Below, in pieces: positions 13,528 to 30,958 of a stretch of 64,000 nucleotides of DNA. The first letter of the stretch is position 1. Each line of letters begins with the position of its first letter. Origin of the DNA: Candidatus Magnetocorallium paracelense. Lineage in GTDB: Bacteria; Nitrospirota; Thermodesulfovibrionia; Thermodesulfovibrionales; Magnetobacteriaceae. Position numbers and translations under genes: made by a program. The stretch lies in assembly GCA_029001845.1 (NCBI GenBank), contig JAREWP010000015.1, positions 1-64,000 of the forward strand, in the 5' to 3' direction. Under the pieces are notes generated by a model. That model had not been told where the DNA came from and did not search any database. It worked only from the letters and a program-made list of their open reading frames with translations.

Positions 13528-15057
13528 TTAATCGTTGATTATAAGTTTCTTTAAAGGCCCCGGTTCATTCTTGATAAAAGGAAAAATATAGGTTTCAAAT
13601 AGATCGTCTCTAAAATCAGCCAGTTTTAAAAATATAAAAAATCCATCTTCCTCTATATGTACTGCCGGCTGCTCCCATGCCGTATATGGAAGGTCAACGA
13701 TTGCGACCTCCTTCTTTTTCCAATTTCTTGTCCCGGCAATTTTTTTGTATCGATATATATATAGTTTATTGCCCCCAAGTATGAGGTAGTATTTATTTAT
13801 ACCAGGTACAAGATTCATATGTACTGTCTCCTCTGAGCCGATATTAACTTCCTCTCCTTTGATAAGCTCTTTGAGAAAGCGGCCGCCATTTTCAGTGTTA
13901 AACTGATAATAGCTCAAATATGCATTTTTATTATCTTTAGTAACCACAGCAAGATAATAAAAATTTTTATTTCTAATCATCTGCTTGAATATTCTCAATT
14001 TCGATCCAAGAGATCCGCTCATCCTGCCTATTTGCGATATTCTCGGATTTGGGGACCTAAGTACCATTCTGTCCATAAAATAGACTAAGGTCTCTGCCTC
14101 ATGATGAGTGACCAGTATCAGACCACTGCCGTTTTCGTCCGAGAAAAGGAGGGGAGTAGAGATAGCCCCCTTAATATTTTCTATCTCCTTATGAGTACCT
14201 GTAGAATTGCTGTTAAGGCCATCTATTTCAAAAAGGTTCACGAAGACTTTGCCGCTTCTTTCATTTATATAGAGCAGTACGATTTGATCTACATCAATAA
14301 AGACGCCAATGGGTTTTATATTTCTCTGTAGGTTTATTGTCCGTTTTTTCTCCTCTCCCATACCTTCCTTAATAGTAACGTATTGGAGGGCGTATGACTT
14401 ATCTTGTCTACTTTGAGTAATAAATACAGTATCTATTCTGTGTCTCGGAAAAAGAGATTCATAGGAGTCAAACATCAAATACATGTCACTTAACGTCTTA
14501 ATCCTGTAATCTTTAAAATCAACGAAATAATCATAACCATCTCTGATATCCCTTATTTCAAGAACAGCACGCCTGTTTCCCTGATTGCTCAGAATGAATA
14601 TATAATTGGAGTTTTCGATTTTATAATGATCGGAAAAGAACACTCTTCCAGTCAGATCTCTCCTGGATTTGCTTCTATAATTCCACAGCACGTTTTTACT
14701 TTCAATGTCAATAATATCCATAGCACGCCCATTTTCTTTCATATGAAAATCGATCTTTCGATAATAACCTATCTTTGCATGTCTATTTTCACTACTCTCT
14801 TCTCCTTCCGCATTCATATCCGGTTTTACAGGGGGTGAAGAAGCCGGCCTGACATCGATTTCCGACGTCTCGGAAAGGGGGGGGACGAAGGATTCCTCCG
14901 TTCGCAACTCTCCACTTGTCTCAGATATCCCGGTGTCATAGATTTCCTCAGCCTGTATATATTCATACCGAAACAAAATCAAGCTAAAGATAAAAAGAGA
15001 TAAAACTACAAAGCAGGAATTTTTTATTCCGGTTATTCCTTTTTTTATTAACATCAT
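13528..15057 (-). CDS. Secreted, probably beta-propeller protein of unknown function
   Basis: 509 aa. An N-terminal hydrophobic segment (about residues 12-32) is a signal peptide or anchor. It is followed by an acidic, Ser/Pro/Glu-rich linker (35-90) and then about 400 residues of beta-rich sequence with repeated aromatic strands (NYIFILSNQGNRRAVLEIRD, FYYLAVVTKDNKNAYLSYY, KYYLILGGNKLYIYRY). This is consistent with a propeller, but I recognise no family. Its ATG overlaps the stop of the FHA membrane protein by four bases, so translation is coupled. It is probably a periplasmic part of the same membrane system. Confidence 0.72.
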   Translation of the reverse strand: MMLIKKGITGIKNSCFVVLSLFIFSLILFRYEYIQAEEIYDTGISETSGELRTEESFVPPLSETSEIDVRPASSPPVKPDMNAEGEESSENRHAKIGYYRKIDFHMKENGRAMDIIDIESKNVLWNYRSKSRRDLTGRVFFSDHYKIENSNYIFILSNQGNRRAVLEIRDIRDGYDYFVDFKDYRIKTLSDMYLMFDSYESLFPRHRIDTVFITQSRQDKSYALQYVTIKEGMGEEKKRTINLQRNIKPIGVFIDVDQIVLLYINERSGKVFVNLFEIDGLNSNSTGTHKEIENIKGAISTPLLFSDENGSGLILVTHHEAETLVYFMDRMVLRSPNPRISQIGRMSGSLGSKLRIFKQMIRNKNFYYLAVVTKDNKNAYLSYYQFNTENGGRFLKELIKGEEVNIGSEETVHMNLVPGINKYYLILGGNKLYIYRYKKIAGTRNWKKKEVAIVDLPYTAWEQPAVHIEEDGFFIFLKLADFRDDLFETYIFPFIKNEPGPLKKLIIND

Positions 15058-15983
15058 AATTGACCATCCTTTCTCTTTGCAGAGCGTTTTTCATGATATA
15101 TTAAATTAGTATTTCCAACCCTGATCCTGTCATGATCCAAAAGTATATGATTGTTTTTAATTTTTGTATTCCTTACAAAAGTATCCTTTGTATCGCTTAT
15201 ATTCATAATGATTAGAGAGTCATCCTCTCTCTTTATACGGGCATGGACCTGATCTACTTCGGTATCGGGGAGATAGATGTTCGCTTTCCAGGGATTACTG
15301 CCTATGGTAGCAGTAGATTTACTCATTTTAAAATTATGAATGTATTTACTGAGATTATAAATTTTTCCTGATAAATTGCCGTTTTGCACTACGATCCAGG
15401 CATCCATTAAAATTGTGGTTATTAACGAAACAAAACCTCCGATACAAAACCCCAGGGTGCTGAGGCCCACTGCTTTTCCAATTGCCCTTGTGTCGGTCAG
15501 TCTGGAAATGACCTCAAGGAATATACTGCCAACCAATCCTCCCAATGCCCCTCCCAATGCTCCCTTTAGGGCCTGGGCGCCGCTGTTGATACTGTCAGAA
15601 ATGCCAAGTACAATCCCGAAAACGATCCACCCGACTACTCTGCCGTATGCTCCGGCTCCGATCTCGGTGAAAATAAACTCTCCTGTCAACAATCCGACAC
15701 TCCCGCTTAAAGCGCCAAGGACGCCTCCTATCATGGCCTTTTTGAATGTATGCCTGAGAGAATACCTCAATGCGATATCGGCCATATTAATAAACACCCC
15801 GATAAATGCCCCTATTACAGCTCCGTGATATAAGGCCGTGAAGTAGATATTATTACCTGTATCAAGATGTATAAAAAGTTTCTCTGAAACCAGCCAGCTA
15901 AAAACGCCTCCAATTGCGCCGAAGATTCCGTAATAGTAGGTTTTTAATGTGAGCTGAATTTTATTTATATTGTTATTATCCAT
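15054..15983 (-). CDS. Membrane protein with C-terminal FHA domain
   Basis: 309 aa. Residues ~15-215 hold about six Gly/Ala-rich transmembrane helices with repeating G-x3-G patterns (GGVLGALSGSVGLLTGEFI; GALGGALGGLVGSIF). The C-terminal ~85 residues form a forkhead-associated domain: IGSNPWKANIYLPDTEVD, then the H-A-x-I core at VDQVHARI, then a late N (RVGNTNLIYH). FHA domains bind phosphothreonine peptides, so this gene suggests an unseen Ser/Thr kinase input, although no kinase is in the window. It overlaps the vWA-RING gene by eight bases and the 509-aa gene by four. Confidence 0.82.
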   Translation of the reverse strand: MDNNNINKIQLTLKTYYYGIFGAIGGVFSWLVSEKLFIHLDTGNNIYFTALYHGAVIGAFIGVFINMADIALRYSLRHTFKKAMIGGVLGALSGSVGLLTGEFIFTEIGAGAYGRVVGWIVFGIVLGISDSINSGAQALKGALGGALGGLVGSIFLEVISRLTDTRAIGKAVGLSTLGFCIGGFVSLITTILMDAWIVVQNGNLSGKIYNLSKYIHNFKMSKSTATIGSNPWKANIYLPDTEVDQVHARIKREDDSLIIMNISDTKDTFVRNTKIKNNHILLDHDRIRVGNTNLIYHEKRSAKRKDGQL

Positions 15984-17292
15984 TTATATGAAATCCAAAG
16001 ACCTTTACAAAACGGCTGCATGCACTACACGTATGATTATTTGCGATCCAGCAGTCAATATGATGAACCGCCCCACATTGGGGACAAATGACTATTTTCT
16101 TACAAAATTCCATGCTTATAGGAAATTCCTCACTATTTTCATAGGGACAGATAGTATCTATATAAGGCGAACTTTTATTTAACGACTGAACTGAAAAAAA
16201 ATTGAATTTTAAAGAACCGACAATATGGCTCGAACCTGAAAAAGCTTTCGGCATGAAAAGTAAAACCATCAGTGTCGTAAGTATGAAACTAAAGATTCGC
16301 CACGTAGGGTCGTAGCCTCTCTTTGCCAAAGTCGCTTTTTCCGACACAGGAATTATTCCGCCGGGATTGTAAGATGCTTCTACCCTGTAGATATTACCTT
16401 CATTGTCGATTGTTATTGTAAGGTCACGGTTAAAACCGTCTCGCGATCCGGATGCTCTATACTCAAAAAAATATTCAAATTGCATCTGTCTGGCAATAGA
16501 TGTGTACAGTTGGGACAACTCATTTCCCTGAGGTGTAAAAAAAGCCTTTCCTCCTGTCGCACCGGCCATATATTCAAGTACCTCTCTGTTTATTGTTTTT
16601 TCACTGCTTCCCAGACCGATTGTAAAAATCCTCACACCGGAAGAATTATCTACAACGGACTGCGGGTCTGTTATCACACCTGTTCTGTTTAAACCATCGG
16701 TAAGGAGAATAACCGATTTATCGCCTTTAACCGATTTCATTAAATCAATGGCCTTCATGGCTGCATCATAAAGAGCTGTTGAGTTGGCAGCTTCCAATGA
16801 AAATATTTTTCCTGTCAACAACTCTTTTTCGTCGGTAAATTCCTGATTTACATAGACCTCACGATTGAAACTGATAATGCCAATTCTGTCTTCAGGTTTC
16901 ATCATATTTATAAAATCGACTGACGCTTCCTGAGCCATTTCTAACTTACCCTCTTCCTCCATACTTCCACTGGTGTCAATGACAAGAGCTGTTGTTACGG
17001 GCTTGTCTATCAGGCTCTTGAAATCGAGGAGCTTTACCGGTGCGCTATCTTCTTCTATTACTATCTCATCTTCAAGCAATCCTTCCACAGGCTCGCCCAT
17101 GCTGCTTTCAGCGAGTAATCTTATTTGAATGAGAGGAAACTGTCTGCTGTCGACAACGCCGGTGAACAGATATGTTTCACTTTCCACTACGCTGCGATGA
17201 ATATTTTCTTCAACACAACCGGCAATAAATAGAACCGTAAAGAATAGAATAAACAGATACTTTCCTATCATTACTCCTGACCTGTTAAACAT
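15976..17292 (-). CDS. vWA lipoprotein with TM segment and C-terminal RING-like zinc domain
   Basis: 438 aa. The N-terminus has a lipobox (FIAGC, Cys26). A vWA domain with intact MIDAS follows: DTSGS at 106-110, then ANSTALYDA, then LLTDG. A single TM (IFSFILTTLMVLLFM) comes next, then a treble-clef/RING-like module at 382-425 (C382, C397, C403-x2-C406, H411, C414-W415, C422-x2-C425) of the Prok-RING type. The simplest topology puts the vWA in the periplasm and the RING in the cytosol, next to the Ubl machinery encoded just upstream. RING domains in Ub systems recruit charged E2. The start could also be the ATG eight codons in (MIGKYLF). A transmembrane E3 is inference. Confidence 0.83.
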   Translation of the reverse strand: MFNRSGVMIGKYLFILFFTVLFIAGCVEENIHRSVVESETYLFTGVVDSRQFPLIQIRLLAESSMGEPVEGLLEDEIVIEEDSAPVKLLDFKSLIDKPVTTALVIDTSGSMEEEGKLEMAQEASVDFINMMKPEDRIGIISFNREVYVNQEFTDEKELLTGKIFSLEAANSTALYDAAMKAIDLMKSVKGDKSVILLTDGLNRTGVITDPQSVVDNSSGVRIFTIGLGSSEKTINREVLEYMAGATGGKAFFTPQGNELSQLYTSIARQMQFEYFFEYRASGSRDGFNRDLTITIDNEGNIYRVEASYNPGGIIPVSEKATLAKRGYDPTWRIFSFILTTLMVLLFMPKAFSGSSHIVGSLKFNFFSVQSLNKSSPYIDTICPYENSEEFPISMEFCKKIVICPQCGAVHHIDCWIANNHTCSACSRFVKVFGFHING

Positions 17293-17442: not shown

Positions 17443-18582
17443 TCAACATGGGTAATCTTCAGCAAGCTCCGTTTCGTTTGCAGGTTCATTGCTATCAGGT
17501 TCCCTGTTTAACACCTTCTTCTTTTCCTCCGATTTGTCGTTCTTATTTTGAGCATCATCCGGAGTGCTATTTTCCTTTTTTAAGATATGTTCAAAATGCT
17601 CATTAAGCTTACGATCTAAATTATTTATTGCTTCAACAGCCCTTGTGATTTGGTCATCGCGAGACTGATCGGCAACATCACTTTTCACAGATCTCATTTT
17701 TATGAAATTTCTAAATTGTACTGCTTCCTGTCGGATTATATTAATGTTATAAAATAATATGACCATCAGAACAGTTAGTATGAAAAAAAACAGTGACTGA
17801 ACAAGTGGGAATGTAAAGCGTTTCTTCTCCTTTTTCAGCACCTTTTTTTTCTGTTCCTTTGGTTCATCAACTATCGCTACGTCCTTTATGCTCGATTCCT
17901 GAGCGTCACCAGCAATGGGATATTTCTCTTTATCAGACAGCTTCTCCTCAACCTGTTTTGCATAAGTCTTTGGCGGAGTGGGAAGGTTTTGCCATGAAAT
18001 CAAGGTTTCCTGTTTTAAGTCAGGAATCTCATAAAACGATCTTAGCACCCTTGGTTCGATTCTATTATCGATCCATTTAAAGAAACCACCCTCATTGCGC
18101 CTCGGATCGAGAACCAAAGCAATTTGATATGTTTCCCTGAAATAATTTTCATGAATGAAAATATCCCTGTCAGACAGAAAGACACCATGTCCCGGGTGTG
18201 AATGATACCATCCCAACACTTTTTTATCCGGAAAACGGCCCTGATGCTCCTCATATAATGAAGAAAAAGTCCTATTCGTAAACTCGAGCTCACAAAGAGC
18301 CGCTTTTGTATGAAGGGCTTCCAGGGAAGAGTCTATAACTATATATGGAATATAAGTTTCAACATCCTCGCAGTAATCGCCTAGAAGAAAACCGCCTGTT
18401 TCCCTATTCATATCCAATGAAACATGATCGACTATAATCTGGTAAACTCTTTGTGTAATATGAATATCTATGCTCTTTTCCTCATGCATTGTGTACAAAA
18501 GCCGTTGAGATGGCAGGGGTCTGGCTGAAGGTCCGTTTTGGGCATCTGTCGAGAGTATCCTTATCATCGGTTTCTTAATCAT
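17443..18582 (-). CDS. Membrane-anchored JAB/JAMM metallopeptidase (Ubl peptidase) A
   Basis: 379 aa. The JAB domain spans about residues 36-170 with every zinc-site element: E61 in ETGGFLLG, H127-S-H129-P-G, S137 and D140 (H-x-H-x7-S-x2-D). This family removes ubiquitin-like proteins from targets or trims their C-termini. A basic stretch precedes one TM (about 275-297), and a charged coiled-coil tail of about 80 residues follows. The catalytic domain should therefore be cytosolic and the tail periplasmic. It lies 17 bases downstream of a second JAB gene, which is unusual because one JAB usually suffices per cassette. The paralogue differs in having extra TM segments and a zinc ribbon. Confidence 0.92.
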   Translation of the reverse strand: MIKKPMIRILSTDAQNGPSARPLPSQRLLYTMHEEKSIDIHITQRVYQIIVDHVSLDMNRETGGFLLGDYCEDVETYIPYIVIDSSLEALHTKAALCELEFTNRTFSSLYEEHQGRFPDKKVLGWYHSHPGHGVFLSDRDIFIHENYFRETYQIALVLDPRRNEGGFFKWIDNRIEPRVLRSFYEIPDLKQETLISWQNLPTPPKTYAKQVEEKLSDKEKYPIAGDAQESSIKDVAIVDEPKEQKKKVLKKEKKRFTFPLVQSLFFFILTVLMVILFYNINIIRQEAVQFRNFIKMRSVKSDVADQSRDDQITRAVEAINNLDRKLNEHFEHILKKENSTPDDAQNKNDKSEEKKKVLNREPDSNEPANETELAEDYPC

Positions 18583-18599: not shown

Positions 18600-20309
18600 T
18601 TAAGGTTGATTTATAGAGAGCATCAATTCGGTTTCTTTAGTCATCGTGTTATTGTCACCGGATGTGAAGATAATGACAACCGGTTCTTCTTTGGCTATAT
18701 CGGTTTCTTTAATTTCATATTCAGATTGCCAGGGATTATTGCTTTCAGTTGCACTGTTTCCTAAACTATCCTCTAAATTAAGCGTCTCAGTTATATTACC
18801 GATCTTAAACAACCCTGATATAGGTTCTATAGAGTTATCGGTAAGCTCTACAGATAGCTTGATTATATCTCCTTTTGAAACACTGCTCTTTGATTGCAGT
18901 TTCTTCTCACCAATGTTTGTAAATTTGATTAACTTCACTTTCTCTATTTTTATTTGAGGCGTACTTGGAGTTTCATCTTTTCCCTTTTTGTCTGCTTCCG
19001 CTGTATCGACGTTAGTTTTATTTTCATCGCTGATTATATCTTCCGCAACGGCTAGTTGTTTATTATTATTGTTGAGGTTTTTATGGAGTGTCGGACTACT
19101 TGTATCCACTCGGTTCAAAATATCGGGCTTTAAGTGGATGTGAGCAGTAGCTGCACCGGTGTCATTAGTGGATGGCTTAGCGATATTTTCCTTTTTTTTA
19201 TTGTCTATAACAGGAAGCAATGTGATCGTTGAGCTGAGCATGAGAGCTAAAATAATTAATGAAAAAGACGCCATATCGATTAGACGATTTTTTATCGAAT
19301 TCTTAAAGAAACCTTTGATTAATATAATAATTGCGATATTGAATAAAAAAAAGGGCGAGCTTTTTTGTATGATATCAATTAAAGTATGGATTGGGATTTG
19401 GAATTTTCTTAGAAATAAATAAAACAATAAGCAATTCAGTGTAACACCGAATGACAGGAAGGCATAAAAGCTTATTTTTTGCTTCGCTGTTGATTGTTCC
19501 GGTTCATCGTGAACTAAAGCTTTATCCTCATGTTGAGTGGAGTCGTTAGTTTCTCTTATCTTAATTCCGAGCTTAGAAGAATCCTCTCCTTTCAATGCCA
19601 TGATATCGGATCGGTTGGATATAAACTTATCGAGCTCGAAATTTTTACAATCCTTTTCTGATAATATTCTGCCCTTTCCGATCCATGAAAAAAACCCGCC
19701 TCTGTTTTTCTTTGTATCCAACACAAGGGCAACCTGCCACGACTCTTTGAAAAGGCTTTCATGTATAAAAATATCAGGATCGGATAACATTATGCCGTGC
19801 CCCGGATGGCTGTGATACCACCCGACAACCTGACGATCAGGGAAACGCCTGTTTCGTTCATTATCGATTTGAATCCATGTCTTGTGATTAAATTCCAACT
19901 TATAGTAATTAGAGACAGCATATTGCGCTTCTATAATATCTTCAATCACTATAAATTCAAACCTCTCTATCTCCTCTATGTATGCCTGTCCGATAAGCAC
20001 TCCTCCACGCTCATTGTCAGTGTCTCCCAAAACATGTTTAATCGCTTTCTTCATAGCAAATTCAGAATAAAAGATATAAAACTTACCATCTTGAGTAGAT
20101 ATTTCTATTTTTTGCAGATCAATTCCCATAGGGGGGAATTTACCTTGCATTGGCTTCATCGCAGAGGGTTTCGTAACAAAAACCCTGGGAGGCTTACCTG
20201 AGCTTGAAACGGGATTTACACATTGAATACATATTCCGTTTTTCGTCGTAATTTGTCCATTACAAACGTCGCAAACTGCTTTCGTTCCGGTATTCATTTT
20301 TGCTTTCAC
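18600..20309 (-). CDS. Multi-pass membrane JAB/JAMM metallopeptidase B with N-terminal zinc ribbon
   Basis: 569 aa from GTG at 20309, overlapping the E2 stop codon by one base. A four-Cys ribbon lies at C13-x2-C16 and C27-x2-C30. The JAB domain at ~75-215 has E100, H166-S-H168-P-G, S176 and D179. About three hydrophobic segments between ~275 and ~370 form a membrane domain. The C-terminal ~190 residues are a polar linker plus a beta-rich module that is likely extracytoplasmic. It is expected to cleave Ubl conjugates at the inner face of the membrane. The zinc ribbon may bind the Ubl or E2. The closest relative in the window is the neighbouring JAB A, with near-identical GWYHSHPGHG motifs. Confidence 0.92.
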   Translation of the reverse strand: MKAKMNTGTKAVCDVCNGQITTKNGICIQCVNPVSSSGKPPRVFVTKPSAMKPMQGKFPPMGIDLQKIEISTQDGKFYIFYSEFAMKKAIKHVLGDTDNERGGVLIGQAYIEEIERFEFIVIEDIIEAQYAVSNYYKLEFNHKTWIQIDNERNRRFPDRQVVGWYHSHPGHGIMLSDPDIFIHESLFKESWQVALVLDTKKNRGGFFSWIGKGRILSEKDCKNFELDKFISNRSDIMALKGEDSSKLGIKIRETNDSTQHEDKALVHDEPEQSTAKQKISFYAFLSFGVTLNCLLFYLFLRKFQIPIHTLIDIIQKSSPFFLFNIAIIILIKGFFKNSIKNRLIDMASFSLIILALMLSSTITLLPVIDNKKKENIAKPSTNDTGAATAHIHLKPDILNRVDTSSPTLHKNLNNNNKQLAVAEDIISDENKTNVDTAEADKKGKDETPSTPQIKIEKVKLIKFTNIGEKKLQSKSSVSKGDIIKLSVELTDNSIEPISGLFKIGNITETLNLEDSLGNSATESNNPWQSEYEIKETDIAKEEPVVIIFTSGDNNTMTKETELMLSINQP

Positions 20310-20926
20310 TAACTTTTAGAAATAATTCTTATTTTATTTCCGGCTCTGGGATTAACTGTTATTTTCCCTGTACTTTTTAAATTAACATCCACTCTTTTGG
20401 GTCTGAGTAATTCTCTTGTATCCACAGGTTTATCGATGGAAAGAATCCCTTTAGGCTCCGCCCAATCGCGGACCCATTTAGCAGCCTCACCATCGTAGGG
20501 ATAGGGAGGCTCATTTTTGGCATGATAGTTTTTGTACTGAATCATCTCTCCAATCATAATACAAATGCTATCGAGAGTCCTGTTCGCCGCCCACCATGCA
20601 GGATTTATGCAAGGACGATGAGGTTCCTTGTGCTCTATATTGGGGTGCCAGACAGGAGTCAGGCATCTCATTTGAGGTTGCTTTTTAGGGTAGTCGGCAT
20701 GCAAATAGATCTCCACTTGATGTAACTCAGCATATATTGGCTCCTGATTGTCATCGATTCCTTTTATGCCTTTGCATTTGTATGTAACTTTATATTTATC
20801 CGGCGGCATATTAGGCGAGTGGTCAATAACTTCAAAGCTTATAAGATCACTTCTTCCCGCAAGAGCGACCATCCGATTATGATCGGAAATTTTCCGTCTG
20901 TTTTGCGGAGTTAATTCTATTGCCAT
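20309..20926 (-). CDS. E2-like ubiquitin-conjugating (UBC fold) protein, cassette 1
   Basis: 205 aa. The UBC core is recognisable from its E2-type HPN motif (H94-P95-N96) after LTPVW, then the candidate catalytic Cys106 in PHRPCINPAWW, with helices following (SICIMIGEMIQY). Strands before this (KYKVTYKCKGIK, HQVEIYLHADYPKKQPQM) match the E2 meander and its Y-P-x(4-5)-P feature. It would accept the Ubl from the E1 as a thioester and pass it to a target, perhaps with a RING protein's help. The insert between HPN and Cys is longer than in eukaryotic E2s. The ATG overlaps the Ubl stop by one base, so the two are translationally coupled. Confidence 0.92.
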   Translation of the reverse strand: MAIELTPQNRRKISDHNRMVALAGRSDLISFEVIDHSPNMPPDKYKVTYKCKGIKGIDDNQEPIYAELHQVEIYLHADYPKKQPQMRCLTPVWHPNIEHKEPHRPCINPAWWAANRTLDSICIMIGEMIQYKNYHAKNEPPYPYDGEAAKWVRDWAEPKGILSIDKPVDTRELLRPKRVDVNLKSTGKITVNPRAGNKIRIISKS

Positions 20927-21201
20927 TAGGAAACCTCCCCTGCAATGATACTCTGGGTAATCGCAAAACTGCTTCCTCCTCCAAGTCCTGCTGAAGCCAG
21001 AGTTTCGTTGTCACTTAGTTCACGCCCCAAATCCTTGTTGTGAATTTTGTAACTTACAGGTTGACCATCGTTAGCGACTGTGGGCAGTGAAAGAGCTGTG
21101 ACAAGCTCCGGTATTATGTCACTAATCGGAACATCGTCGGGCAGCTCCACCTCAGAGGTTCCTCCTGTAGGTACTGTAATCTTTACTTCAATACTGGCCA
21201 T
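20926..21201 (-). CDS. Ubiquitin-like modifier (YukD/EsaB-like fold), cassette 1
   Basis: 91 aa. An N-terminal beta-hairpin (SIEVKITVPTGGTSEVEL) leads into the hallmark helix of YukD-like Ubls, DDVPISDIIPELVTALSLP, then beta-strands to the end. The second Ubl in this window (33893-34147) shares the DVPIxDxxP core. There is no terminal Gly-Gly. The tail is IIAGEVS with Gly88 three residues from the end, so one of the linked JAB peptidases may have to trim it before activation. AGGAGG lies 8 bases before the ATG. The gene sits between the RING and E2 genes, the classic place for a bacterial Ubl. Confidence 0.9.
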   Translation of the reverse strand: MASIEVKITVPTGGTSEVELPDDVPISDIIPELVTALSLPTVANDGQPVSYKIHNKDLGRELSDNETLASAGLGGGSSFAITQSIIAGEVS

Positions 21202-21249: not shown

Positions 21250-21714
21250 TTATATTTTATGATTCACTGCGCATTTACCGTCATTAGCCTCCCAGCAATC
21301 CTTATGATACTTGGCATTACATGTGGGACAAACTTCGAAACCGCCATTGCTTTCTGTTAATTCATTGCAGCAATAGACGCATTTCACATTTTCATCTATA
21401 GAAACGGAAAAAGGTTTGCCTGCAATAATTCCGGTTATTGCAACAGTATTATTTCGCCTGCCTGATTCAACCGCCTGATCGGAAGCTTTATATCCGGGAG
21501 TTAATACTCTGACATATTGCTCCTTTTTTAGTACTTTGACACGATTTCCCGAATAATCCGACCCACAGGAAGTTGATAAATAATTTGTATTATTCAAACG
21601 TCTTTTTCTCAGCCTGAATAATATAAATATCAGCAGGACAACAACGGCCCCTCCGATCGGCGCATAAACTTCTAGAGGTATATTATGTAAAATCGAGAAC
21701 ATCGCCTGCGTCAC
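21250..21714 (-). CDS. Single-pass membrane RING-finger protein (candidate E3), cassette 1
   Basis: 154 aa from GTG at 21714; ATG at 21702 is an alternative. A hydrophobic segment (about 18-33) is followed by the strongly basic RLRKRR, so the C-terminus should be cytosolic. Residues ~60-110 look like a small beta domain. Residues 112-152 form a RING-like zinc module: C112-x2-C115 (and C116), C129-x2-C132, H137, C140-W141, C148, H152. Spacing from CPxC to CW to the last Cys matches the vWA-RING protein exactly. Prok-RING domains have been reported next to bacterial Ubl/E1/E2/JAB genes. The gene overlaps the E1 gene by 20-32 bases. Confidence 0.86.
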   Translation of the reverse strand: MTQAMFSILHNIPLEVYAPIGGAVVVLLIFILFRLRKRRLNNTNYLSTSCGSDYSGNRVKVLKKEQYVRVLTPGYKASDQAVESGRRNNTVAITGIIAGKPFSVSIDENVKCVYCCNELTESNGGFEVCPTCNAKYHKDCWEANDGKCAVNHKI

Positions 21715-22879
21715 CGGTCAACTCAAAACTCATTGAGCGTTCATTTCCTACTGCCCTGATAATATGAAGCGGAGGAACGCCTATTTCATAAAGAGTCTTG
21801 TGTGAAAAATCCTCTTTTCCGGTAATTTTATTCGTAGTGGAGGGAACCATTAATTTGCCGCATCGCCTACAGTCCGATTCTTCCAAAAAGACTCTGCCGG
21901 TCGGTCTTAATACAAGCTCTTCTCTCCCGCACTCCGGACATTTTAAAGTTACAACCAGCTCATAGCCAAGCTCAATTATCGCCTCCGCACCTAAATGTTC
22001 CCCGATTATCTCCAACATCTCCTTTATTGTAGTGTCTGAGGCCTTATTCTCCTTTAGCTCAACGGGATCAGGGTAAGTATAGTGACTCATGCACTCTTCC
22101 TTTACAGGATATTCGGTTGTATATATAAGATTCGTCAAACCATTAAATACAATGGCCTTTCCGGATAATGAAAAATCATTCATTCCATGGAGCAGTTTTA
22201 ACGCTTCCTGTGACTGAATCCCTGCAATTATGGATGAAATCGTAGGGGTTGTAGGCACCTTGCCAAGGGTAATATTTTTTAATGCCAGGTCTTTACAGGG
22301 CATTCTCTGATCCAACAATACCCAATCCTGCTCAGAGAGCGTGCATTCATAACATGCGCCGTTATCAGGAGCAAAGACACGGGCTATTCCATAAAGCTCC
22401 TCTATAGCGCCGTCTACCCAGGGTTTATTCATATAACGGCAGGAACGATTAACCGACAGTCTGGCCTCTCTGTTATCAAGACACCCTATAATTACATCCA
22501 TTCTGCGAAATACCCCCAAACCGAGATCATGGTTCACATCGCCATCGAAAGTCTTTACCTTTACGGAAGAATTCATAGTTCTGACAGCCGATGCAGCAGT
22601 GTCCGTTTTCTTTTTACCATTGTCCACCTCCCTGAACAAAACCGATCTGCTCAGGTTCGCCGCCTCGATAGTGTCAACATCCAGGATAAAAAGATTTCCA
22701 ATGCCCATGAGTGCCATGTTTTTTATAACCTCGTTCCCAAGGGCGCCTGCGCCTACTACCATTACCTTTGCCTTTTCTATCTTATCCTGATCCCACCATG
22801 AGATAAGACGCAGTGTTCCGGCGCGGTCCCTTGACAAATCGGGAATTTTGACAATGCAGGATTTTTTTTGTTCAGACAT
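21683..22879 (-). CDS. E1-like Ubl-activating enzyme (ThiF fold), cassette 1
   Basis: 398 aa. The N-terminal ThiF/UBA domain has the nucleotide loop G43-A-G-A-L-G48, Asp68, the N-L-S-R motif (75-78) and D135-N136. A Cys pair at C176-x2-C179 is followed by C195 (RMPCKDL), which sits where MoeB/E1 enzymes carry the catalytic Cys. PTTPTISS then leads into the helix near the adenylation site. The C-terminal ~120 residues include a four-Cys ribbon (CPEC...CRRC). It should adenylate the Ubl C-terminus and pass it to the linked E2. The extended C-terminal region is not the eukaryotic UFD and may bind the E2. Confidence 0.92.
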   Translation of the reverse strand: MSEQKKSCIVKIPDLSRDRAGTLRLISWWDQDKIEKAKVMVVGAGALGNEVIKNMALMGIGNLFILDVDTIEAANLSRSVLFREVDNGKKKTDTAASAVRTMNSSVKVKTFDGDVNHDLGLGVFRRMDVIIGCLDNREARLSVNRSCRYMNKPWVDGAIEELYGIARVFAPDNGACYECTLSEQDWVLLDQRMPCKDLALKNITLGKVPTTPTISSIIAGIQSQEALKLLHGMNDFSLSGKAIVFNGLTNLIYTTEYPVKEECMSHYTYPDPVELKENKASDTTIKEMLEIIGEHLGAEAIIELGYELVVTLKCPECGREELVLRPTGRVFLEESDCRRCGKLMVPSTTNKITGKEDFSHKTLYEIGVPPLHIIRAVGNERSMSFELTGDAGDVLDFT

Positions 22880-22961: not shown

Positions 22962-25904
22962 TCATTTTTTAATAGTCCCGGCATGTTCTTGGTGTTTATC
23001 GGCATTGCTGTTTTCACTATAATCACTCTCATTGCTCTTGTCATGTTCTAACATGCCTGAATCGCTTTCTCCATGATTGTATCCTTTAAAACTTATTGAC
23101 AACTGCTCTTCCTGAATTCTTTTAATCTCATCGCTGGGAACCGACAGTTCGACTTTTTCTCTTCTTTTTAATATCTCATTTTCACGATTATTTATTATTG
23201 CATTCTTTTTATCATAGGACTCCTGAGTGATCTCTTCGTTAATTAACTGAAGATAGAGACTCTCCTTATCTTTAATGAGTCCCTCGAGTTCCGTTCGATC
23301 TCTTTCAAGAAGCATATTGAGTACCTTTTTATTATGGTCATAAAGAATATTATCCCTGTCAACAAGCCTTTTCAGCCCGTCCTCATAAGTTTCATAAGCT
23401 ATCTTTCTCATAGCTTTGTTTCGTTCCGTAATGACTCTTGTCTCCTCGGCTTTGGCGGCATTTAAAATTTCAATGTTTTGTTTGACCCATGTTATGCCTC
23501 GATATTCATTCCTGTTAAAGATATGTTTGACAATTTCTTCGCAGTTAGAATCGTCGGGGTCATTTTTTATTATATTATGCTGCCTTACAAATCCTTTTAA
23601 CTCCTCAATAATCACTTTTGTCAAGGCAGGCTCGTCAATCTTTTGAGCCTTCTCATCGATATATGTAATCGAGCCGCGAATGTGGTAGGTCTCTCCGTTT
23701 TTAGCGTTCACGGCAATAGACTCATGGTCAATGTCTAGATAGAGTATTCTTGTCTCCTTTGTAGGGGTGATAGTTACAGATAAATTTGATAATACAAAGG
23801 ATTGATCTCTATAGCCCGGGAAATCACGTATCCATTTATCGCACTCCTCTAATGAGAGATAGTGAGATTGAGAATTTTCAGCCTTCATTTTCAAATAAGA
23901 CGATAACCCGTTAATTAATCTCTCCTTTTCAAAGATATCTATTGCAATGGTATAACCATCGATAATACCCTCAAGAAGATAACCTTTACTATTTGCGGTT
24001 TCCAGCTCCACTTGAACAGAGAGGTTAAAAAATTTATTATAATCGTTCAGTTCTGGCAGAGTAGCCGTTGCCACAGTTATGTCCAAGCCTTCGATAAAAC
24101 CGATTTTTTCAATAATTTCCTGAACCATTACAGGCGTTAAAGGACCATTGATATCTCCTGCCTCTTTAATCAATATGGATTCCAGACGCGCTCTGATAAG
24201 ATTTACGATCTTTTCGTTATCGCTGTTTTCATTATTACCGGAGCCTCTGCAATAAACCGCCACATTTTCCAGATAATAGGAATGCCCTGTGTTGGTTCTT
24301 AGAAAATAGGAATCGCTCTCTTCTTTTCCAAGGATCACAGTGATGGAATGAGTAACATTTTCGATTGTTACAAGCACAGTGTTAACAAAAAAACCATAAA
24401 GCTCCTTTCTCCCTTCCTCCTGAATCAGGCTCTCACACTCTTCAACCTTAGGAATTCCTGTGACTGTTCTAAAATACTTTGTTAACTCGCCAACAAGGTG
24501 AGTCTTGAATCTATCTGCACCATTCCATTCTTCCCTGATCACAAGGCAATCCAATGCTGCGTGTAATCGACAGAAAAAACCATCTCTGCTGCGCAATGTC
24601 GTCTCTAAGGAAATCTCTTCCGATTGCATCCGTTTATCGAACCGAATATACCGGATGCCGTTAAATCTTAGCTTATACTCTTCCTCCAGATTCAGCTCCT
24701 TGATAAACCACCTGATATGTTCCTCTGACTGTAACTGCCCTCCTCCGACAGCCATTTGCAGTTGTTCTTTAAAATAGAGCTCTACCTCCTCACCGGGAGA
24801 TGTCCTTAGTTGCGTCAGATAACTTATCTTGGCCTCGATTTCAATGATAATTCCTTCTCCGGCCTTTAACTGCAAAGGTAAATCGGAGCGTCCTAAGTGA
24901 AGTTCGACAGCTCTGTAGGTTAGCCTGGGTTCACGGGGGACATCTACAGCGTCAATAACCGAGGAGAAGTCATCCGGTCTGGGAGTTTCAAGCACGGCAT
25001 TTATTATCCGCCCCTTACTGAGAAAAGTATCGAATTTCTCGGCAAACACCTTTAGATAATCCGCTATTTTAGTTCTAAGCTGACGGATATTATCATTGGA
25101 CTCACTTCCTGTTCTGCCACGAACCTCAACCCACACTTCATATGTCTCCTGAATCCCGCTTGTCAGTTCAAGACCCGGTTTATCGAATATTCCCTGAGAG
25201 GATTGGACCGGATTCTCCTGCGGACCACCGGTTAATATTTTAATCTTACCGCTCTTTTGTCCTTCATCGCTTCCCAACACCCTGACACGTCCTGAAGTAT
25301 TGTCGTCAACGGACCTCGATGTCTCACTTCTATTAGAATTGACAAGACGTATCTTCGTCTTTTTAACAACATGAGAATTAACGGGGCTAAATGTTATGTC
25401 ATCGTCCACATGAAGCCAGAAGGCGAACTGCTTTGATTTGTCAATAATCCTTATGTTATTTAACTCTTTTACAGATACTTCCTCTCCAATGAGAGGTTGT
25501 ACAAGCACTTCTCTGCATGAATCCTCATCCAGCTCAGGCATGGTTTTAGCCTTGTTATTGAGATTCTGCTTTTTACGTTCTATAAGCAAGGAGAGAGAAT
25601 CCTCATCGCCATGAAATTGTTCTGCAACGATATCCGATTTCCTGCATTCGCAAACCAAATCTACTTTGACCTGATAAATCAGACCATTTAAGGAAACAAC
25701 CTCCTGTTCAAAAGGCACACTTATCGATTTTCTGCTCACCCTGTATCCAGGCTTATTCTTTATTAAAGGCAACCTCTGTCCGAATGTGAAGATTTTTGAT
25801 TTGATCTCACCATGGGAATCTTGAATTTGCACGATATCATACCCCTCACGCTGTTTCCAGTCAGTTTGAACTACCATTTTATATAATGATGTAAGATTAG
25901 GCAT
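22962..25904 (-). CDS. Large cytosolic protein with tandem SPFH-like repeats and C-terminal coiled coil
   Basis: 980 aa with no signal peptide or TM. I see about six diverged units of 100-130 residues, each with a strand-turn-strand pattern around a Gly (SLNGLIYQVKVDL, SRDGFFCRLHAALDCLV, TNTGHSYYLENVAVY, AKNGETYHIRGSITY). Helices follow, and in some units an EEC[ED] motif (VEECESLI, LEECDKWI). The last unit ends GITWVKQNIEILNAAKAEE and runs into a long charged coiled coil (~820-935). This layout resembles SPFH/band-7 domains, which assemble membrane microdomains, but the match is by eye only. It lies two bases after the 704-aa gene and upstream of E1, so it is probably a core structural partner of cassette 1. 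Confidence 0.75.
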   Translation of the reverse strand: MPNLTSLYKMVVQTDWKQREGYDIVQIQDSHGEIKSKIFTFGQRLPLIKNKPGYRVSRKSISVPFEQEVVSLNGLIYQVKVDLVCECRKSDIVAEQFHGDEDSLSLLIERKKQNLNNKAKTMPELDEDSCREVLVQPLIGEEVSVKELNNIRIIDKSKQFAFWLHVDDDITFSPVNSHVVKKTKIRLVNSNRSETSRSVDDNTSGRVRVLGSDEGQKSGKIKILTGGPQENPVQSSQGIFDKPGLELTSGIQETYEVWVEVRGRTGSESNDNIRQLRTKIADYLKVFAEKFDTFLSKGRIINAVLETPRPDDFSSVIDAVDVPREPRLTYRAVELHLGRSDLPLQLKAGEGIIIEIEAKISYLTQLRTSPGEEVELYFKEQLQMAVGGGQLQSEEHIRWFIKELNLEEEYKLRFNGIRYIRFDKRMQSEEISLETTLRSRDGFFCRLHAALDCLVIREEWNGADRFKTHLVGELTKYFRTVTGIPKVEECESLIQEEGRKELYGFFVNTVLVTIENVTHSITVILGKEESDSYFLRTNTGHSYYLENVAVYCRGSGNNENSDNEKIVNLIRARLESILIKEAGDINGPLTPVMVQEIIEKIGFIEGLDITVATATLPELNDYNKFFNLSVQVELETANSKGYLLEGIIDGYTIAIDIFEKERLINGLSSYLKMKAENSQSHYLSLEECDKWIRDFPGYRDQSFVLSNLSVTITPTKETRILYLDIDHESIAVNAKNGETYHIRGSITYIDEKAQKIDEPALTKVIIEELKGFVRQHNIIKNDPDDSNCEEIVKHIFNRNEYRGITWVKQNIEILNAAKAEETRVITERNKAMRKIAYETYEDGLKRLVDRDNILYDHNKKVLNMLLERDRTELEGLIKDKESLYLQLINEEITQESYDKKNAIINNRENEILKRREKVELSVPSDEIKRIQEEQLSISFKGYNHGESDSGMLEHDKSNESDYSENSNADKHQEHAGTIKK

Positions 25905-25906
25905 TA

Positions 25907-28021
25907 TTATATCCTCCTTTGCTTAAGACGCTCCCTGGTAGAAGCAGAATAAACGGCCCTTCGTCCCTTTATCCCAAGCCTCCGCGAAACAGCGTTATAA
26001 ACCTCATGCTTAATATCGCCTATGGGTCTCTCCTCCCATGGTTTCAAAAAGAACCAGAAAATCTCCTGATAATCGGAACGCTTTGGCTTTCTCTTTACAC
26101 GCGCCAATACATTCCCGGAACGTCTTCCCGGCTGCCGGGACCGTGTTTCAGAGATTGGTTCAGAATTATTATCGGAGGACTCAAGCTCCTTGTAGAGTTC
26201 CACAAGCAGGTTTGTAATAATTTCACGCACCTCCGGTTCATAAGTACGCTCATTATCTTTATCCGAAAAGGCGTCGAGCCAATTCGCCAGCAGGTTTACA
26301 TTGATTTGGCTTATCAATATATTATAGAAGTCGGATATTTCCTCGGGATTGGAAGCAGAGCGAATGACTGAGGCAAAGACATTGATGATAGTTTTTTGGA
26401 TCTTGTCATCCATGCTTTGTGTGAACACCAGCCACAAAGCTTCCACACTCTTACGCCCCAGATTTTTTTGATTTACTATTCCCTCCTTACCATTATCGAG
26501 GAGTTCCTTTTTTATAATTCCAAGAAAAACATCCAACATTCTTTGAAAGAAGTCCACTTGTATTTTTTTTAGATTCTTATCTTGCTCCGATACGACCCAT
26601 TGGCTCAGCTTAGTCAACACATCGCGATAAAAGCCGCTCAAACCTAAGACAACAAGAGAATATATCACTGCATCCAAGAGATATTTTTTATGAGATAAAT
26701 CTGAAATCGTTCTTTGTTTTTTCAGTACATATTGTAGACAGTTTAGTGCAACATCTATATCCGCTTTACCGATCTCCTTGCATACGGAAGCGGATGTCCA
26801 CTGAAGTCTTATGTCTCCCGTATTAACCCAATCTTTCAAATATACAAAAATGCTCTCACGAGACAAACCGCTCTCAACTGCTTCGGTCAATATAAATCCA
26901 CTGGCAGCTCTAATGCCTAAATCGTTGCTGATCGCCCAGGTACTTGTTAAGAGGTTGAAGACATATCCGGCGCCATGTTTCATAAATCCGCCGATTGCAT
27001 GCCCTATTTGACGACGATCTTCCCATGATAGATCCGGGCCGGTGATGATAATGTCGAATAATATTGGAATTATCTGAGTGATTGCTATATCTCTGTGCTT
27101 TTGACGAATAAAGTTGTCGATCTCAGGTAAATGCTTACTGTCAAAACAAACCACATCTATTGTGTGGCCTCCGATTTCACGGGTTTCTACCCGGGCATCG
27201 ATTCTGTCAAGAGCAGACATAAAGCTTTCTTCTAAAATGGATGGTTGTACCTGGGCTTGTGCATTTTGGTCGTTGTTTATACTGCTTTGAAATCTATTCG
27301 CCTTTTGTTCTCCTATTGTGGGTATGCCTAAACTATTTACAACTCTGTTAAATATCGATTGAAGAGTCACCCACTCGATTTGAGGAAACATAATTATAAG
27401 AATTGAAATTATTATGTCTCTGTCATACAGTTCGTCCCTACACTGCAATAGTCTGGCTTCTCCTGCTGCATGTGAAGTATCTCCGCCTGTGTTTTCACTT
27501 TGTAGTCTATTGATCTTCTCTGCGTATTCATTCGCTTCTTTTGTATACTCCTCGATAGCCAGCTTAGCCTTATTAAAATTCTCCGGGTTGAATACCGGAT
27601 CGGTTGCGTTCTTAACTTTTAACCAGCGATCTAATAAATCCTCGGCTGTATGCTTTAGCTGCAAGTTATAACGTATTTCATTATCTCTGGAACTAAAAAG
27701 TCGACTTTCTAACCCCCTTACCAACTCCTTGTCGGATAATATTTCATCGATTATTGAGTTGTTGTCAGTGATGGTGTGTTCGTCATTTATACTCTCCCGA
27801 TTGTCAGATTCGGAAGTAAGTGACACCGGGTCCGCCTCTTCATCTACTGCTGTATCCGCTCCATCTGAAACAGTAGTTCCTCCGTCTCTATCGGTTACAA
27901 CATCACCTGTATCAGTACTTTCGCCTGAGATATTTCCCTCCGGTTGTTCCATGCTCTGAGCACTCTGGCTCTCAGAGACAGGAGTCGTTTCGGAAGAAGA
28001 TCGATTTTCCTCTGTTGACAT
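25907..28021 (-). CDS. Large helical protein with disordered acidic N-terminus
   Basis: 704 aa of no family I recognise. Residues 1-95 are Ser/Thr/Glu/Asp-rich and probably disordered. Residues ~98-175 are helical and carry a segment (TDPVFNPENFNKAKLAIEEY, 140-159) that matches the C-terminal segment of the neighbouring TIR protein (TDPIHDPERYEEIKLKIEVY). The middle (~190-620) looks like HEAT/ARM-type helices; the tail is basic and Arg-rich (GRRAVYSASTRERLKQRR). It is translationally coupled to the 980-aa gene with a two-base gap. A scaffold that brings the TIR effector to the 980-aa protein is a reasonable guess. Confidence 0.72.
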   Translation of the reverse strand: MSTEENRSSSETTPVSESQSAQSMEQPEGNISGESTDTGDVVTDRDGGTTVSDGADTAVDEEADPVSLTSESDNRESINDEHTITDNNSIIDEILSDKELVRGLESRLFSSRDNEIRYNLQLKHTAEDLLDRWLKVKNATDPVFNPENFNKAKLAIEEYTKEANEYAEKINRLQSENTGGDTSHAAGEARLLQCRDELYDRDIIISILIIMFPQIEWVTLQSIFNRVVNSLGIPTIGEQKANRFQSSINNDQNAQAQVQPSILEESFMSALDRIDARVETREIGGHTIDVVCFDSKHLPEIDNFIRQKHRDIAITQIIPILFDIIITGPDLSWEDRRQIGHAIGGFMKHGAGYVFNLLTSTWAISNDLGIRAASGFILTEAVESGLSRESIFVYLKDWVNTGDIRLQWTSASVCKEIGKADIDVALNCLQYVLKKQRTISDLSHKKYLLDAVIYSLVVLGLSGFYRDVLTKLSQWVVSEQDKNLKKIQVDFFQRMLDVFLGIIKKELLDNGKEGIVNQKNLGRKSVEALWLVFTQSMDDKIQKTIINVFASVIRSASNPEEISDFYNILISQINVNLLANWLDAFSDKDNERTYEPEVREIITNLLVELYKELESSDNNSEPISETRSRQPGRRSGNVLARVKRKPKRSDYQEIFWFFLKPWEERPIGDIKHEVYNAVSRRLGIKGRRAVYSASTRERLKQRRI

Positions 28022-28162: not shown

Positions 28163-28894
28163 TTATTCCATTGATTTCAACTCTATCTCTAATTTATCTA
28201 GCTCCTGAGAGTAGACCTCAATCTTTAATTTGATCTCTTCATATCTTTCGGGATCATGAATCGGATCCGTCACCTTAAAAATCTTTCTAAAATGCTGTAT
28301 ACGCTCCTGAATATTTATAATCTGCTCTTCCCATGCATCTATTTTACTTTTATGGGCATGACACTTTTTGTTTCTACGAGTTTCTTTCAAATAATTCTCT
28401 ATTCTTTTATATTTAAAGTTAATTTGTTCGTTAAAAAATCCTTCTTTAATCAGATCACATATGCCTTGAACAACGTTATTAAAGGCTTCATCTATATTAG
28501 GCCAGCTTGTTACCGCCTTCCCGTTATGTGGGAGAGCTTGAAGTTTACCTAAAGGTGTAACATCCCAATGACAATCACGGAGAATAACTGGTACGATAAC
28601 AGCATCACCAAAATTCTGCCTCGCCATTGCATGCTTCATTTCAACACCATAACAGAAATCAGATTGAATAAAATCCGATGAAATAAGAAGCAGGATTATA
28701 TGGGCATTATCTAAATGCTCATTTATTTCCCCTTCCCACTCTTGTCCGGATAGAATTTCACGATCATGCCAAATATTAATAAGACCACAACGCTTTAAAG
28801 CCATAAGGTGACTTTTAAGATTATTTTTTAATTCCTCATCCTTGTGAGAGTAGGATATGAAAAGGTTAATAGGTGTATTTAAATATTTATACAT
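28163..28894 (-). CDS. TIR-domain protein with C-terminal helical adaptor segment
   Basis: 243 aa. Residues ~8-150 form a bacterial TIR domain (TIR_2 type): NLFISYSHKDEEL, NIWHDREILSGQEW, HIILLLISSDFIQSDFCYGVEM with candidate catalytic Glu85, VIVPVILRDC, LQALPHNGKAVTSWPN. Many bacterial TIRs cleave NAD+ on activation in immunity, and others act as scaffolds. Residues ~160-243 are a coiled coil ending in a segment shared with the 704-aa protein downstream. The start lies 12 bases after the ATPase-phosphoesterase stop. Its place between two Ubl cassettes suggests a regulated effector, but toxicity cannot be judged from sequence. Confidence 0.9.
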   Translation of the reverse strand: MYKYLNTPINLFISYSHKDEELKNNLKSHLMALKRCGLINIWHDREILSGQEWEGEINEHLDNAHIILLLISSDFIQSDFCYGVEMKHAMARQNFGDAVIVPVILRDCHWDVTPLGKLQALPHNGKAVTSWPNIDEAFNNVVQGICDLIKEGFFNEQINFKYKRIENYLKETRRNKKCHAHKSKIDAWEEQIINIQERIQHFRKIFKVTDPIHDPERYEEIKLKIEVYSQELDKLEIELKSME

Positions 28895-28906
28895 CGTTTG
28901 AATTTA

Positions 28907-30958
28907 TTATAAATCAAAGTCACCTGAGTTACTATCTTTGAAAATATTATTATCTGAGTCATAGATGTTTCTGATTATTTTATATGATTGTGAATTGTTA
29001 TGATTAAAGATTAAAAGATTAAAACCAGAAATTTTATTATTTTTTTTGCATAAAGATCCTGCGTCAATGGATAAAGGAGGTATGGTTTTAAAATTATCTA
29101 CTGACAAACAACGCTTATAAGTGTAAAGATGAAAATGGCCATGCAGAATCATATGAAACTTATAATCGGTCAAGAACTTTAAAAACATGGCAGAGTTTTT
29201 TAATTTTAACAATGAATTATGATATCTTCTTATAAGTAGTGGCACACTACTATCGTTAATCTCAGTCGGGCTATGATGAAGAGCAGCTATTCTAATAGTA
29301 TTGTTTGAAGGCTTTTCTGCGATTAATTTATTGTTCATTATATCTTTGAGTTGAAGCTCTGAAACAATCCCCTTTGCTTTATATTTACGTTTCTTTGAAG
29401 GTGTAGAATGAAAATAGAAAATTTCAAAATTAATATTCTTTATTTCAATCTTTAGATTGGGTGATAACATTCCTGTATAAGGAAATAACTCTTTTACTTT
29501 GGCATCATGAGCTGGTGGTACATCAGCATTCTTATGATAGTCATGATTTCCAAAGCCTATGATCATTCTTTGATGTTTAGGAGAATTTGATAAATAAGCG
29601 AGGTCAATTTCATTGAATTCTCTACTTGCATCGATAAACTCTTCTGGTTTACCTGATTCAGTTATATCACCAGTTATGATTAGTATATGAGGTCTTATAA
29701 TATTAATTTTTTCTATAGCAGCTTTTAATACAAAAGAATCATGTTTTCCTATATGAGTATCTGAAAGATGTACTATTCTAACATCATTTTTTTCTCTAAT
29801 AAATTTAGGGAAAATAAGCGGATTAATTGTTAAAAATTTATTATAGTCTGATGAGTTTGATGATGCATCCATGTTTAATATTTCAGGAGTGCTTTTTATT
29901 TTAAGTATTTTTTTACCGATAAGTGTATTAATGGCTTTTTGAATGTTAGCTTGTTCATAGTTATGTTTTTCATTTATTTTATTGATCAAAACGTGTTTAT
30001 CGACAGCATATTTAAAATTGGTCGTTATATCCTTTTTAATGTAAGTAATCTCTGTTAATAAATCTTTTTCTTCATTTGACAATTTATTATAGTGTTTATC
30101 AAAGGTATCAAGTTCCATATGCTTTAATTCATTGACAATAACACAATTTATAAAATCAGCATTTATTGTAGAAATATTATTATTAACGCAATACTTTACT
30201 ATATGGCTGAATATGAGTTGAAACCAAAAGGGGAGTCCACCAGAAAGATTGTATATTGTGGAGATTGTATCATCAAGATTATTAAAGGTTATGTTATATA
30301 TTTTTTTTATTAAAGGATAATAATACTCCTTTATTTTATTGGTATCAATATAATCAAGAGTAAATAGTTCAATTTTTAAAGTCCCAATATTTCTAAAAAT
30401 AGTGTCAGCAATAGGTAGAAAAATATCCTTCAATTTACTTTGAAGTATATTTTTATCTTTTACCAGCTCACCTTCATGATCAGTGATCGAGAGTGAAATA
30501 AAACTGATTATATTAGCGCTGCAGATAATATTTAGCAGCTCCATTAAATATTTTGTCTGGTCATTGTTGGTATCTTTAAAATAGCTTTTAATGGTAAATA
30601 ATAAATGTAAATCGTCTATTATATAAACAATATTAGAATGCTTTTTTAATTCATTGTTTAATTGTTGAAATTTACTATCAATAAAGGTTTCATTAAAATG
30701 TCGGTTTGTAATAGCAAAAAAAATCTTTTCAATAAGCTGACTAATTAAATTATTATAATTATCTGATTTACAGTCAAACTCTTTCAAATGAAGAGTAACA
30801 GGTTTATAATCATTCTTTAACCTTAAATGCAATAATGTTAAAAGCGTAGTTTTACCCATTTGAGATAGAGAATTAATAAAAAAGAGTTTTGCCTCTATCT
30901 TTTTTACATCATCTTTTATTTCATTTTTTTTATTTTTTTTAATACTTTTACTACTCAT
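28907..30958 (-). CDS. P-loop ATPase fused to calcineurin-like metallophosphoesterase
   Basis: 683 aa. The N-terminal part is an AAA/STAND-like ATPase with a Walker A variant S30-L-S-Q-M-G-K-T37 (first Gly replaced), Walker B VYIIDD at 111-116, and a later GGLPFWFQLI motif typical of STAND/orc-type ATPases. A winged-helix-like region (~290-355) follows. Residues ~393-660 are a calcineurin-like phosphoesterase with all motifs: D400-T-H402, G430-D431, GNHD at 470-473, a later HH, and GHFH. The gene is much more AT-rich than its neighbours (16 G/C in the 60 bases 30001-30060). A sensor ATPase controlling a nuclease or phosphatase is my reading. Confidence 0.88.
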   Translation of the reverse strand: MSSKSIKKNKKNEIKDDVKKIEAKLFFINSLSQMGKTTLLTLLHLRLKNDYKPVTLHLKEFDCKSDNYNNLISQLIEKIFFAITNRHFNETFIDSKFQQLNNELKKHSNIVYIIDDLHLLFTIKSYFKDTNNDQTKYLMELLNIICSANIISFISLSITDHEGELVKDKNILQSKLKDIFLPIADTIFRNIGTLKIELFTLDYIDTNKIKEYYYPLIKKIYNITFNNLDDTISTIYNLSGGLPFWFQLIFSHIVKYCVNNNISTINADFINCVIVNELKHMELDTFDKHYNKLSNEEKDLLTEITYIKKDITTNFKYAVDKHVLINKINEKHNYEQANIQKAINTLIGKKILKIKSTPEILNMDASSNSSDYNKFLTINPLIFPKFIREKNDVRIVHLSDTHIGKHDSFVLKAAIEKINIIRPHILIITGDITESGKPEEFIDASREFNEIDLAYLSNSPKHQRMIIGFGNHDYHKNADVPPAHDAKVKELFPYTGMLSPNLKIEIKNINFEIFYFHSTPSKKRKYKAKGIVSELQLKDIMNNKLIAEKPSNNTIRIAALHHSPTEINDSSVPLLIRRYHNSLLKLKNSAMFLKFLTDYKFHMILHGHFHLYTYKRCLSVDNFKTIPPLSIDAGSLCKKNNKISGFNLLIFNHNNSQSYKIIRNIYDSDNNIFKDSNSGDFDL

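Follow-up and report, generated by a model that had tools for sequence, protein, structure and literature searches.

A vWA-transmembrane protein with a RING-like tail in a bacterial Ubl-conjugation operon

The operon and its vWA-TM gene

We analyzed a stretch of 64,000 nucleotides from Candidatus Magnetocorallium paracelense (assembly GCA_029001845.1, contig JAREWP010000015.1, positions 1 to 64,000), referred to here as the window. It contains a Ubl-conjugation operon with all genes on the same strand (Table 1). In order of transcription, these encode two large proteins, an E1, a TM-RING protein, a YukD-type Ubl, an E2, two JAB peptidases, a vWA-TM protein, and a multi-TM FHA protein. The genes are separated by short gaps or overlap, except for 150 bp ahead of the vWA gene. 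The location of the vWA gene beside Ubl machinery, asserted in a preliminary description of this DNA, is therefore that of a gene within the operon. The same description had suggested modelling a complex of the RING with a cassette-1 E2; the likely partner is instead the E2 of this operon, encoded 3 kb upstream.

Table 1. Features of the Ubl-conjugation operon and of the vWA-TM protein (positions in the window)
Feature	Position	Strand	Evidence
Multi-TM protein, C-terminal FHA; overlaps vWA gene by 8 bp	15054..15983	(-)	PF00498 1.9e-9; vWA neighbour in 46 Anaerolineae loci
vWA-TM-RING-like protein, 438 aa	15976..17292	(-)	ORF, Pfam, NCBIfam TIGR03436, AlphaFold model pLDDT 78.5
Predicted RING-like (Prok-RING_1-like) C4HC3 treble-clef tail (res 382-425), 7/8 ligands	16018..16149	(-)	
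Single TM helix (res 329-353)	16234..16308	(-)	Hydropathy; H329-353 in model
Beta-sandwich, C-terminal strands (res 273-308)	16369..16476	(-)	Model strands E273-279, E289-297, E300-308
vWA domain, MIDAS intact (DTSGS 106-110, T172, D199)	16504..16992	(-)	PF00092 6.4e-15; invariant columns
Beta-sandwich, N-terminal half, flanks vWA (res 42-93)	17014..17169	(-)	Model strands E42-48, E54-62, E77-81, E88-93; Foldseek
Hydrophobic signal segment and lipobox IAGC (res 9-26, Cys26)	17215..17268	(-)	Sequence, hydropathy
JAB peptidase, C-terminal TM	17443..18582	(-)	PF01398 3.3e-12
JAB peptidase, N-terminal zinc-ribbon-like Cys pairs, TMs	18600..20309	(-)	PF01398 5.1e-7; sequence
E2 (HPN motif, Cys107), C-terminal basic motif KIRII	20309..20926	(-)	PF00179 2e-8; sequence
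YukD-type Ubl ending ..IIAG-EVS	20926..21201	(-)	PF08817 7.7e-13; C-terminus comparison
Separate TM + Prok-RING_1 protein, 8/8 ligands	21250..21714	(-)	PF14446 3e-6; family alignment
E1 (ThiF-type)	21683..22879	(-)	PF00899 1.7e-54
980-aa protein, two basic motifs (GRVRVLG, GKIKILT), without Pfam domain, operon upstream	22962..25904	(-)	
704-aa protein without Pfam domain, operon upstream	25907..28021	(-)	

We found that the vWA-TM gene is a single uninterrupted frame with an ATG start, and that its 3' end overlaps the FHA gene. A frameshift artefact was rejected on the basis of the open frame and this tight overlap. The order of features proposed earlier (lipobox, vWA domain with an intact MIDAS, one TM helix, C-terminal Cys/His cluster) was borne out by sequence, Pfam, NCBIfam, hydropathy and the structural model. 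The vWA domain matched PF00092 over residues 103-263 (E=6.4e-15, 56.2 bits, cut-off 23.8), and the protein passed the cut-off for TIGR03436 (89.4 bits, cut-off 81.25). The MIDAS residues D106, S108, S110, T172 and D199 did not vary across 36 aligned sequences. Cys26 of the lipobox follows the signal segment, and lipidation is predicted from this arrangement. The lipobox is not kept among the orthologs, which mostly have ordinary Sec signals.

In the full-length AlphaFold model the vWA domain is inserted within a beta-sandwich. Confidence was high in the vWA domain, the flanking sandwich and the TM helix, and poor in the tail (pLDDT about 40-56). The best Foldseek matches for the vWA domain plus sandwich were inter-alpha-inhibitor HC1, ArnAB/Sec23-24-like proteins and other proteins combining vWA with a sandwich.

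Within the system, the conserved RING is that of the separate TM-RING protein, which is also a better RING than the tail of the vWA-TM protein. The two proteins that head the operon (22962-28021) had no relative within the 80 E1 loci described below and no Pfam match. Among 396 genomes of the phylum, the E2 was present in this one alone, and for that reason we suggest that the operon was probably gained by horizontal transfer.

The window also contains a second, divergent Ubl cassette (28163-36066), which encodes an E1, a small Ubl, an E2, a JAB peptidase, a TIR protein, an NTPase-metallophosphatase and a vWA-TM protein. The Ubl of this cassette (33893-34147) ends in EPEFGV. Its vWA-TM protein (31006-32502) has a degenerate MIDAS, in which DxSGS reads DLSDL. 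A 208-aa protein (35440-36066) has a degenerate RING-like cluster at its C-terminus (CRSC..YQLYESW..CTVC) that keeps just the outer zinc site.

The RING-like tail

The Cys and His residues of the tail are C382, C397, C403, C406, H410, H411, C414, C422 and C425. Paired as in Prok-RING domains (C382 with E385, C403/C406, H411/C414, C422/C425), they supply seven of the eight C4HC3 ligands canonical for Prok-RING_1. Alignment with RING proteins from the same kind of operon put Glu385 at the position of the second Cys; C397 might take over the role of this missing residue. A domain search of the isolated tail, as advised in the preliminary description, gave 25.1 bits against Prok-RING_1 (PF14446), under the curated Pfam cut-off of 29.1 bits. 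The full-length protein gave a partial match under the same cut-off (residues 396-420, E=3.3e-5, 24.2 bits). In a scan of its own genome the tail scored 22.9 bits, also under the cut-off, and no second copy of the tail was found. Assignment of the cluster to the Prok-RING type was thus upheld in part: the weak match and the seven ligands favor it, but the scores and the Glu in place of a Cys do not.

We found that the Cys/His pattern is not due to chance. The core pattern, C..C-x(3-5)-H..C-x(5-12)-C..C, was absent from all 200,000 shuffles of the vWA-TM protein (0/200,000), and a chance origin of the cluster was therefore rejected.

When an alignment of other RINGs was supplied, the tail folded into a compact model (pLDDT about 84-91 for model residues 11-60, pTM 0.66) with a beta-hairpin and a helix (E40-43, E50-52, H53-58). 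A good fold was obtained only with this alignment. The nearest PDB folds in Foldseek were a C1 domain (GEFH1), ranked first, the RNF13 RING, TFIIH p44 and RNF12, all non-significant (E at least 0.16), and a PDB profile search gave nothing stronger than weak PHD, RING and ribosomal zinc matches. The modeled fold appears treble-clef-like, with RING and C1 both among its nearest neighbours. The preliminary description had staked its proposal on a treble clef at this site, and the RING-alignment model is compatible with one.

We found strongly basic tails in 47 orthologs (median net charge +9, range +6 to +12). By the positive-inside rule, this places the tail in the cytosol and the vWA domain outside the cytoplasm, as had been proposed, and a periplasmic tail was rejected because the basic tails extend across all orthologs. 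The TM flanks of the window protein taken alone were ambiguous for this rule.

The tail is encoded with a cognate E1, E2 and Ubl, as is looked for in a RING E3. A built-in E3 in the tail would be plausible; E3 activity itself we regard as possible but doubtful. An alternative is a zinc-binding treble clef of C1/RING-like type that has a docking or structural role and no E3 activity, which would leave the TM-RING protein as the sole E3-like factor; in our view this is rather unlikely. We would only tentatively name the partner that such a non-catalytic dock might hold (the FHA protein, the Ubl, a JAB peptidase or a lipid). The spacing C-x2-C-x4-H-x2-C-x7-C is that of the latter half of the C1 signature, and to this can be added the Foldseek rank of the C1 domain, the C1_1 score of the sister TM-RING protein (0.0064, Pfam) and the Cys missing at the first zinc site. 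In Planctomycetes, domains of the Prok-RING type are found in serine proteases, TPR proteins and others as well, and the orthologs described below manage without a RING tail. In contrast, the tail is encoded within an E1/E2/Ubl operon, and the best Pfam family for both RING-like proteins is Prok-RING_1, not C1.

Conservation of the vWA-TM protein and variation of its tail

We found that the vWA-TM protein is a core part of the Anaerolineae operon. Species genomes scanned with both E1s yielded 80 loci, mainly from Anaerolineae (most at 52-57% identity), with some from Ardenticatenia-like Chloroflexi and Planctomycetes. The vWA-TM protein was present with E2, Ubl, JAB, FHA and RING in every complete Anaerolineae-type locus, that is, every one with sufficient downstream sequence (46/46). 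For RING this count holds by construction, because the loci were selected for the RING gene; the other five components were not selected for. The FHA gene adjoins the vWA gene in these 46 loci.

The type of tail varies among relatives. The cytosolic tail of the Anaerolineae proteins is about 33 aa long (range 16-50), has a net charge of +9 (+6 to +12), and ends in RIKLK. The RING cluster was missing from all vWA-TM orthologs examined and is therefore not a defining property of the protein. In Ardenticatenia-like operons, we saw no vWA gene next to those of the Ubl machinery. These operons encode two RING proteins, one with a TM, and the window tail aligns with the TM-bearing one over 28-32 residues (46-54% identity). 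One planctomycete has a vWA-TM/TM-FHA pair on a contig separate from its Ubl locus, and this vWA protein ends almost directly past the TM helix. A planctomycete cluster (L156, 10659-16123) has an Hsp70-like protein fused to vWA adjoining such a pair, at a distance from the Ubl locus of its genome. Tails are thus of three types (none, basic motif, RING). The RING tail is a lineage-specific variant of the vWA-TM protein. This tail swap, like the anatomy, the operon and the conserved association, is a computational observation.

The vWA and FHA proteins might instead be a membrane module in their own right, BatA-like or adhesion-like, which happens to neighbour the Ubl operon, with a tail unrelated to Ubl conjugation. 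We consider this quite improbable. The planctomycete pair away from its Ubl locus, the promiscuity of the vWA domain and the 150-bp gap ahead of the window gene are in its favor, but both genes are in 46/46 Anaerolineae Ubl loci, the terminal motif of the vWA tail is common to E1 and E2, and the second cassette of the window also has a vWA-TM protein.

Searches with the full-length protein or the tail found no other vWA-TM-RING fusion in 60 relatives, 392 genomes of the phylum, 294 Planctomycetota, 400 Chloroflexota, 21 genomes with Ubl loci, or plasmids (about 1,100 sampled genomes in all). Most of the weak tail matches within the phylum were interrupted by stops. Because no such fusion turned up elsewhere, conservation does not back a function of the RING tail. 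A recent and degenerate fusion, which put a functionless piece of a captured RING gene on a receptor working through its vWA domain and FHA partner only, is very unlikely: the tail is a singleton among the sampled genomes, with a Cys missing and no second copy in the genome, but its frame is open, its second zinc site and HxxCW core are intact, and its pattern occurred in zero shuffles.

E1, E2 and vWA-TM proteins of Anaerolineae (loci L035-L113) have a common basic motif, [KR][IV][KR][ILV], usually at or near the C-terminus. We counted 1.31 motifs per E1, 1.31 per E2 and 0.80 per vWA protein, compared to 0.04-0.12 in shuffles (10 to 20-fold enrichment) and 0.05 in unrelated neighbours (about 15 to 25-fold). 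The Anaerolineae Ubl is strongly acidic (mean net charge -7.7, pI 4.3). Ardenticatenia-like and planctomycete loci lack the motif, and their Ubl is less acidic. At the ends of planctomycete E2 tails there are instead hydrophobic stretches with acidic flanks, which resemble SUMO-interacting motifs (e.g., DDIMFIN). Similar basic stretches are found in the E2, the TM-RING protein and the 980-aa protein of the window, and not in its vWA-TM protein. From these sequences, which represent few independent lineages, we infer that the basic motif may act as a docking site, akin to a SUMO-interacting motif, for the Ubl or some other common partner.

Nearly all complete YukD-type Ubl orthologs (L035-L114) terminate precisely in ..[TV]AG. 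The window Ubl continues past this point with EVS, and one planctomycete Ubl ends VAG-ACQ. These extensions suggest a three-residue tail for trimming by JAB, and the C-terminus of the YukD-type Ubl would be Ala-Gly in place of the usual Gly-Gly.

Proposed role and relation to known systems

A membrane receptor or scaffold wired to Ubl conjugation is well supported by these results. We give somewhat better than an even chance to the fuller proposal that the vWA-TM protein is the receptor or scaffold of a membrane-bound bacterial Ubl system, that its tail docks E2~Ubl, and that the RING form may aid transfer. Ligand binding, E2 docking, E3 activity and substrates are the parts that we infer. The MIDAS vWA domain, in its integrin/ITIH-like beta-sandwich outside the cytoplasmic membrane, would bind either a ligand or another protein. 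One TM helix would join it to the cytosolic tail, which would tether the conjugation machinery (E2~Ubl) to the membrane. The short RIKLK-type motif might do the holding in most relatives. In this genome, the RING-like treble clef most likely docks the E2 or E2~Ubl of the operon, and it may help discharge Ubl onto nearby membrane proteins. The JAB peptidases would reverse the tagging, and the FHA partner would add phospho-dependent recognition.

A further-reaching version, in which the extracellular integrin-like vWA domain has direct control over a built-in RING E3, and this E3 attaches the YukD-type Ubl to membrane targets, strikes us as unlikely; if true, it would be outside-in ubiquitin-type signalling within one polypeptide. 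We are similarly skeptical of its corollary that the RING evolved by replacing the short docking motif common to E1 and E2. The receptor or scaffold proposal links a vWA receptor at the cell surface with a complete bacterial Ubl pathway in a conserved seven-gene operon (46/46 Anaerolineae loci), and suggests that bacterial Ubl conjugation acts in some cases as a membrane signalling system. That a RING can stand in for a short basic motif on this tail provides a testable rule for E2 recruitment.

Eukaryotic PA-TM-RING ligases (RNF13/GRAIL type) have a signal peptide, an extracellular binding domain, one TM and a cytosolic RING. The window protein has the same layout, and the RNF13 RING is among the non-significant nearest folds of its tail. 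However, it has a vWA domain and no Pfam match to the PA domain of those ligases, a bacterial lipobox, a degenerate first zinc site, and no sequence relationship to them. In 2011, Burroughs, Iyer and Aravind reportedly described Prok-RING_1 E3 candidates in bacterial E1-E2-Ubl-JAB operons. The predicted C4HC3 treble clef and the operon with E1, E2, Ubl and JAB are the same here, but the tail is a second RING-like copy, fused behind a secreted vWA domain and a TM, with one ligand missing. A bacterial vWA-TM-RING protein, undescribed according to the preliminary description, was not found in the literature searched or in the roughly 1,100 genomes. The vWA component itself may already have been mentioned in the 2011 Prok-RING paper.

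The operon has the E1, E2, JAB and Ubl logic of BilABCD and CBASS-linked E1-E2-JAB defence. In contrast to those systems, it has a separate E1 and E2, a YukD-type Ubl, and RING, FHA and vWA membrane parts. Defence-system profiles gave only weak generic E1, BilD and JAB matches, and none for the E2, Ubl, RING, FHA or vWA proteins of the operon. Membership in Bil or CBASS was rejected since the matches to system-specific component profiles were lacking.

Prokaryotic RING E3 candidates are known from bacterial E1-E2-Ubl-JAB operons (PMC7159879, PMC11354881). In vWA-MoxR FtsH-ternary systems with complete Ubl conjugation, one operon encodes a prokaryotic RING E3, E1, E2, JAB and a vWA that is joined to beta-propeller or ClpN domains (PMC7159879). 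In contrast, the vWA protein described here is a TM receptor, and MoxR and FtsH were not found in the window operon. Integrin beta and ITIH heavy chains share with it the MIDAS vWA domain inserted in a beta-sandwich, and integrins also share the single TM and the short cytosolic tail with a docking motif, but here the cytosolic partner would be a Ubl conjugation system. RINGs encoded in bacterial Ubl operons are already known, as are vWA proteins in certain conflict systems that contain Ubl (PMC7159879); what appears to be new is the vWA-TM protein as a fixed component of the Anaerolineae operon, with a basic tail whose RIKLK motif is also carried by E1 and E2.
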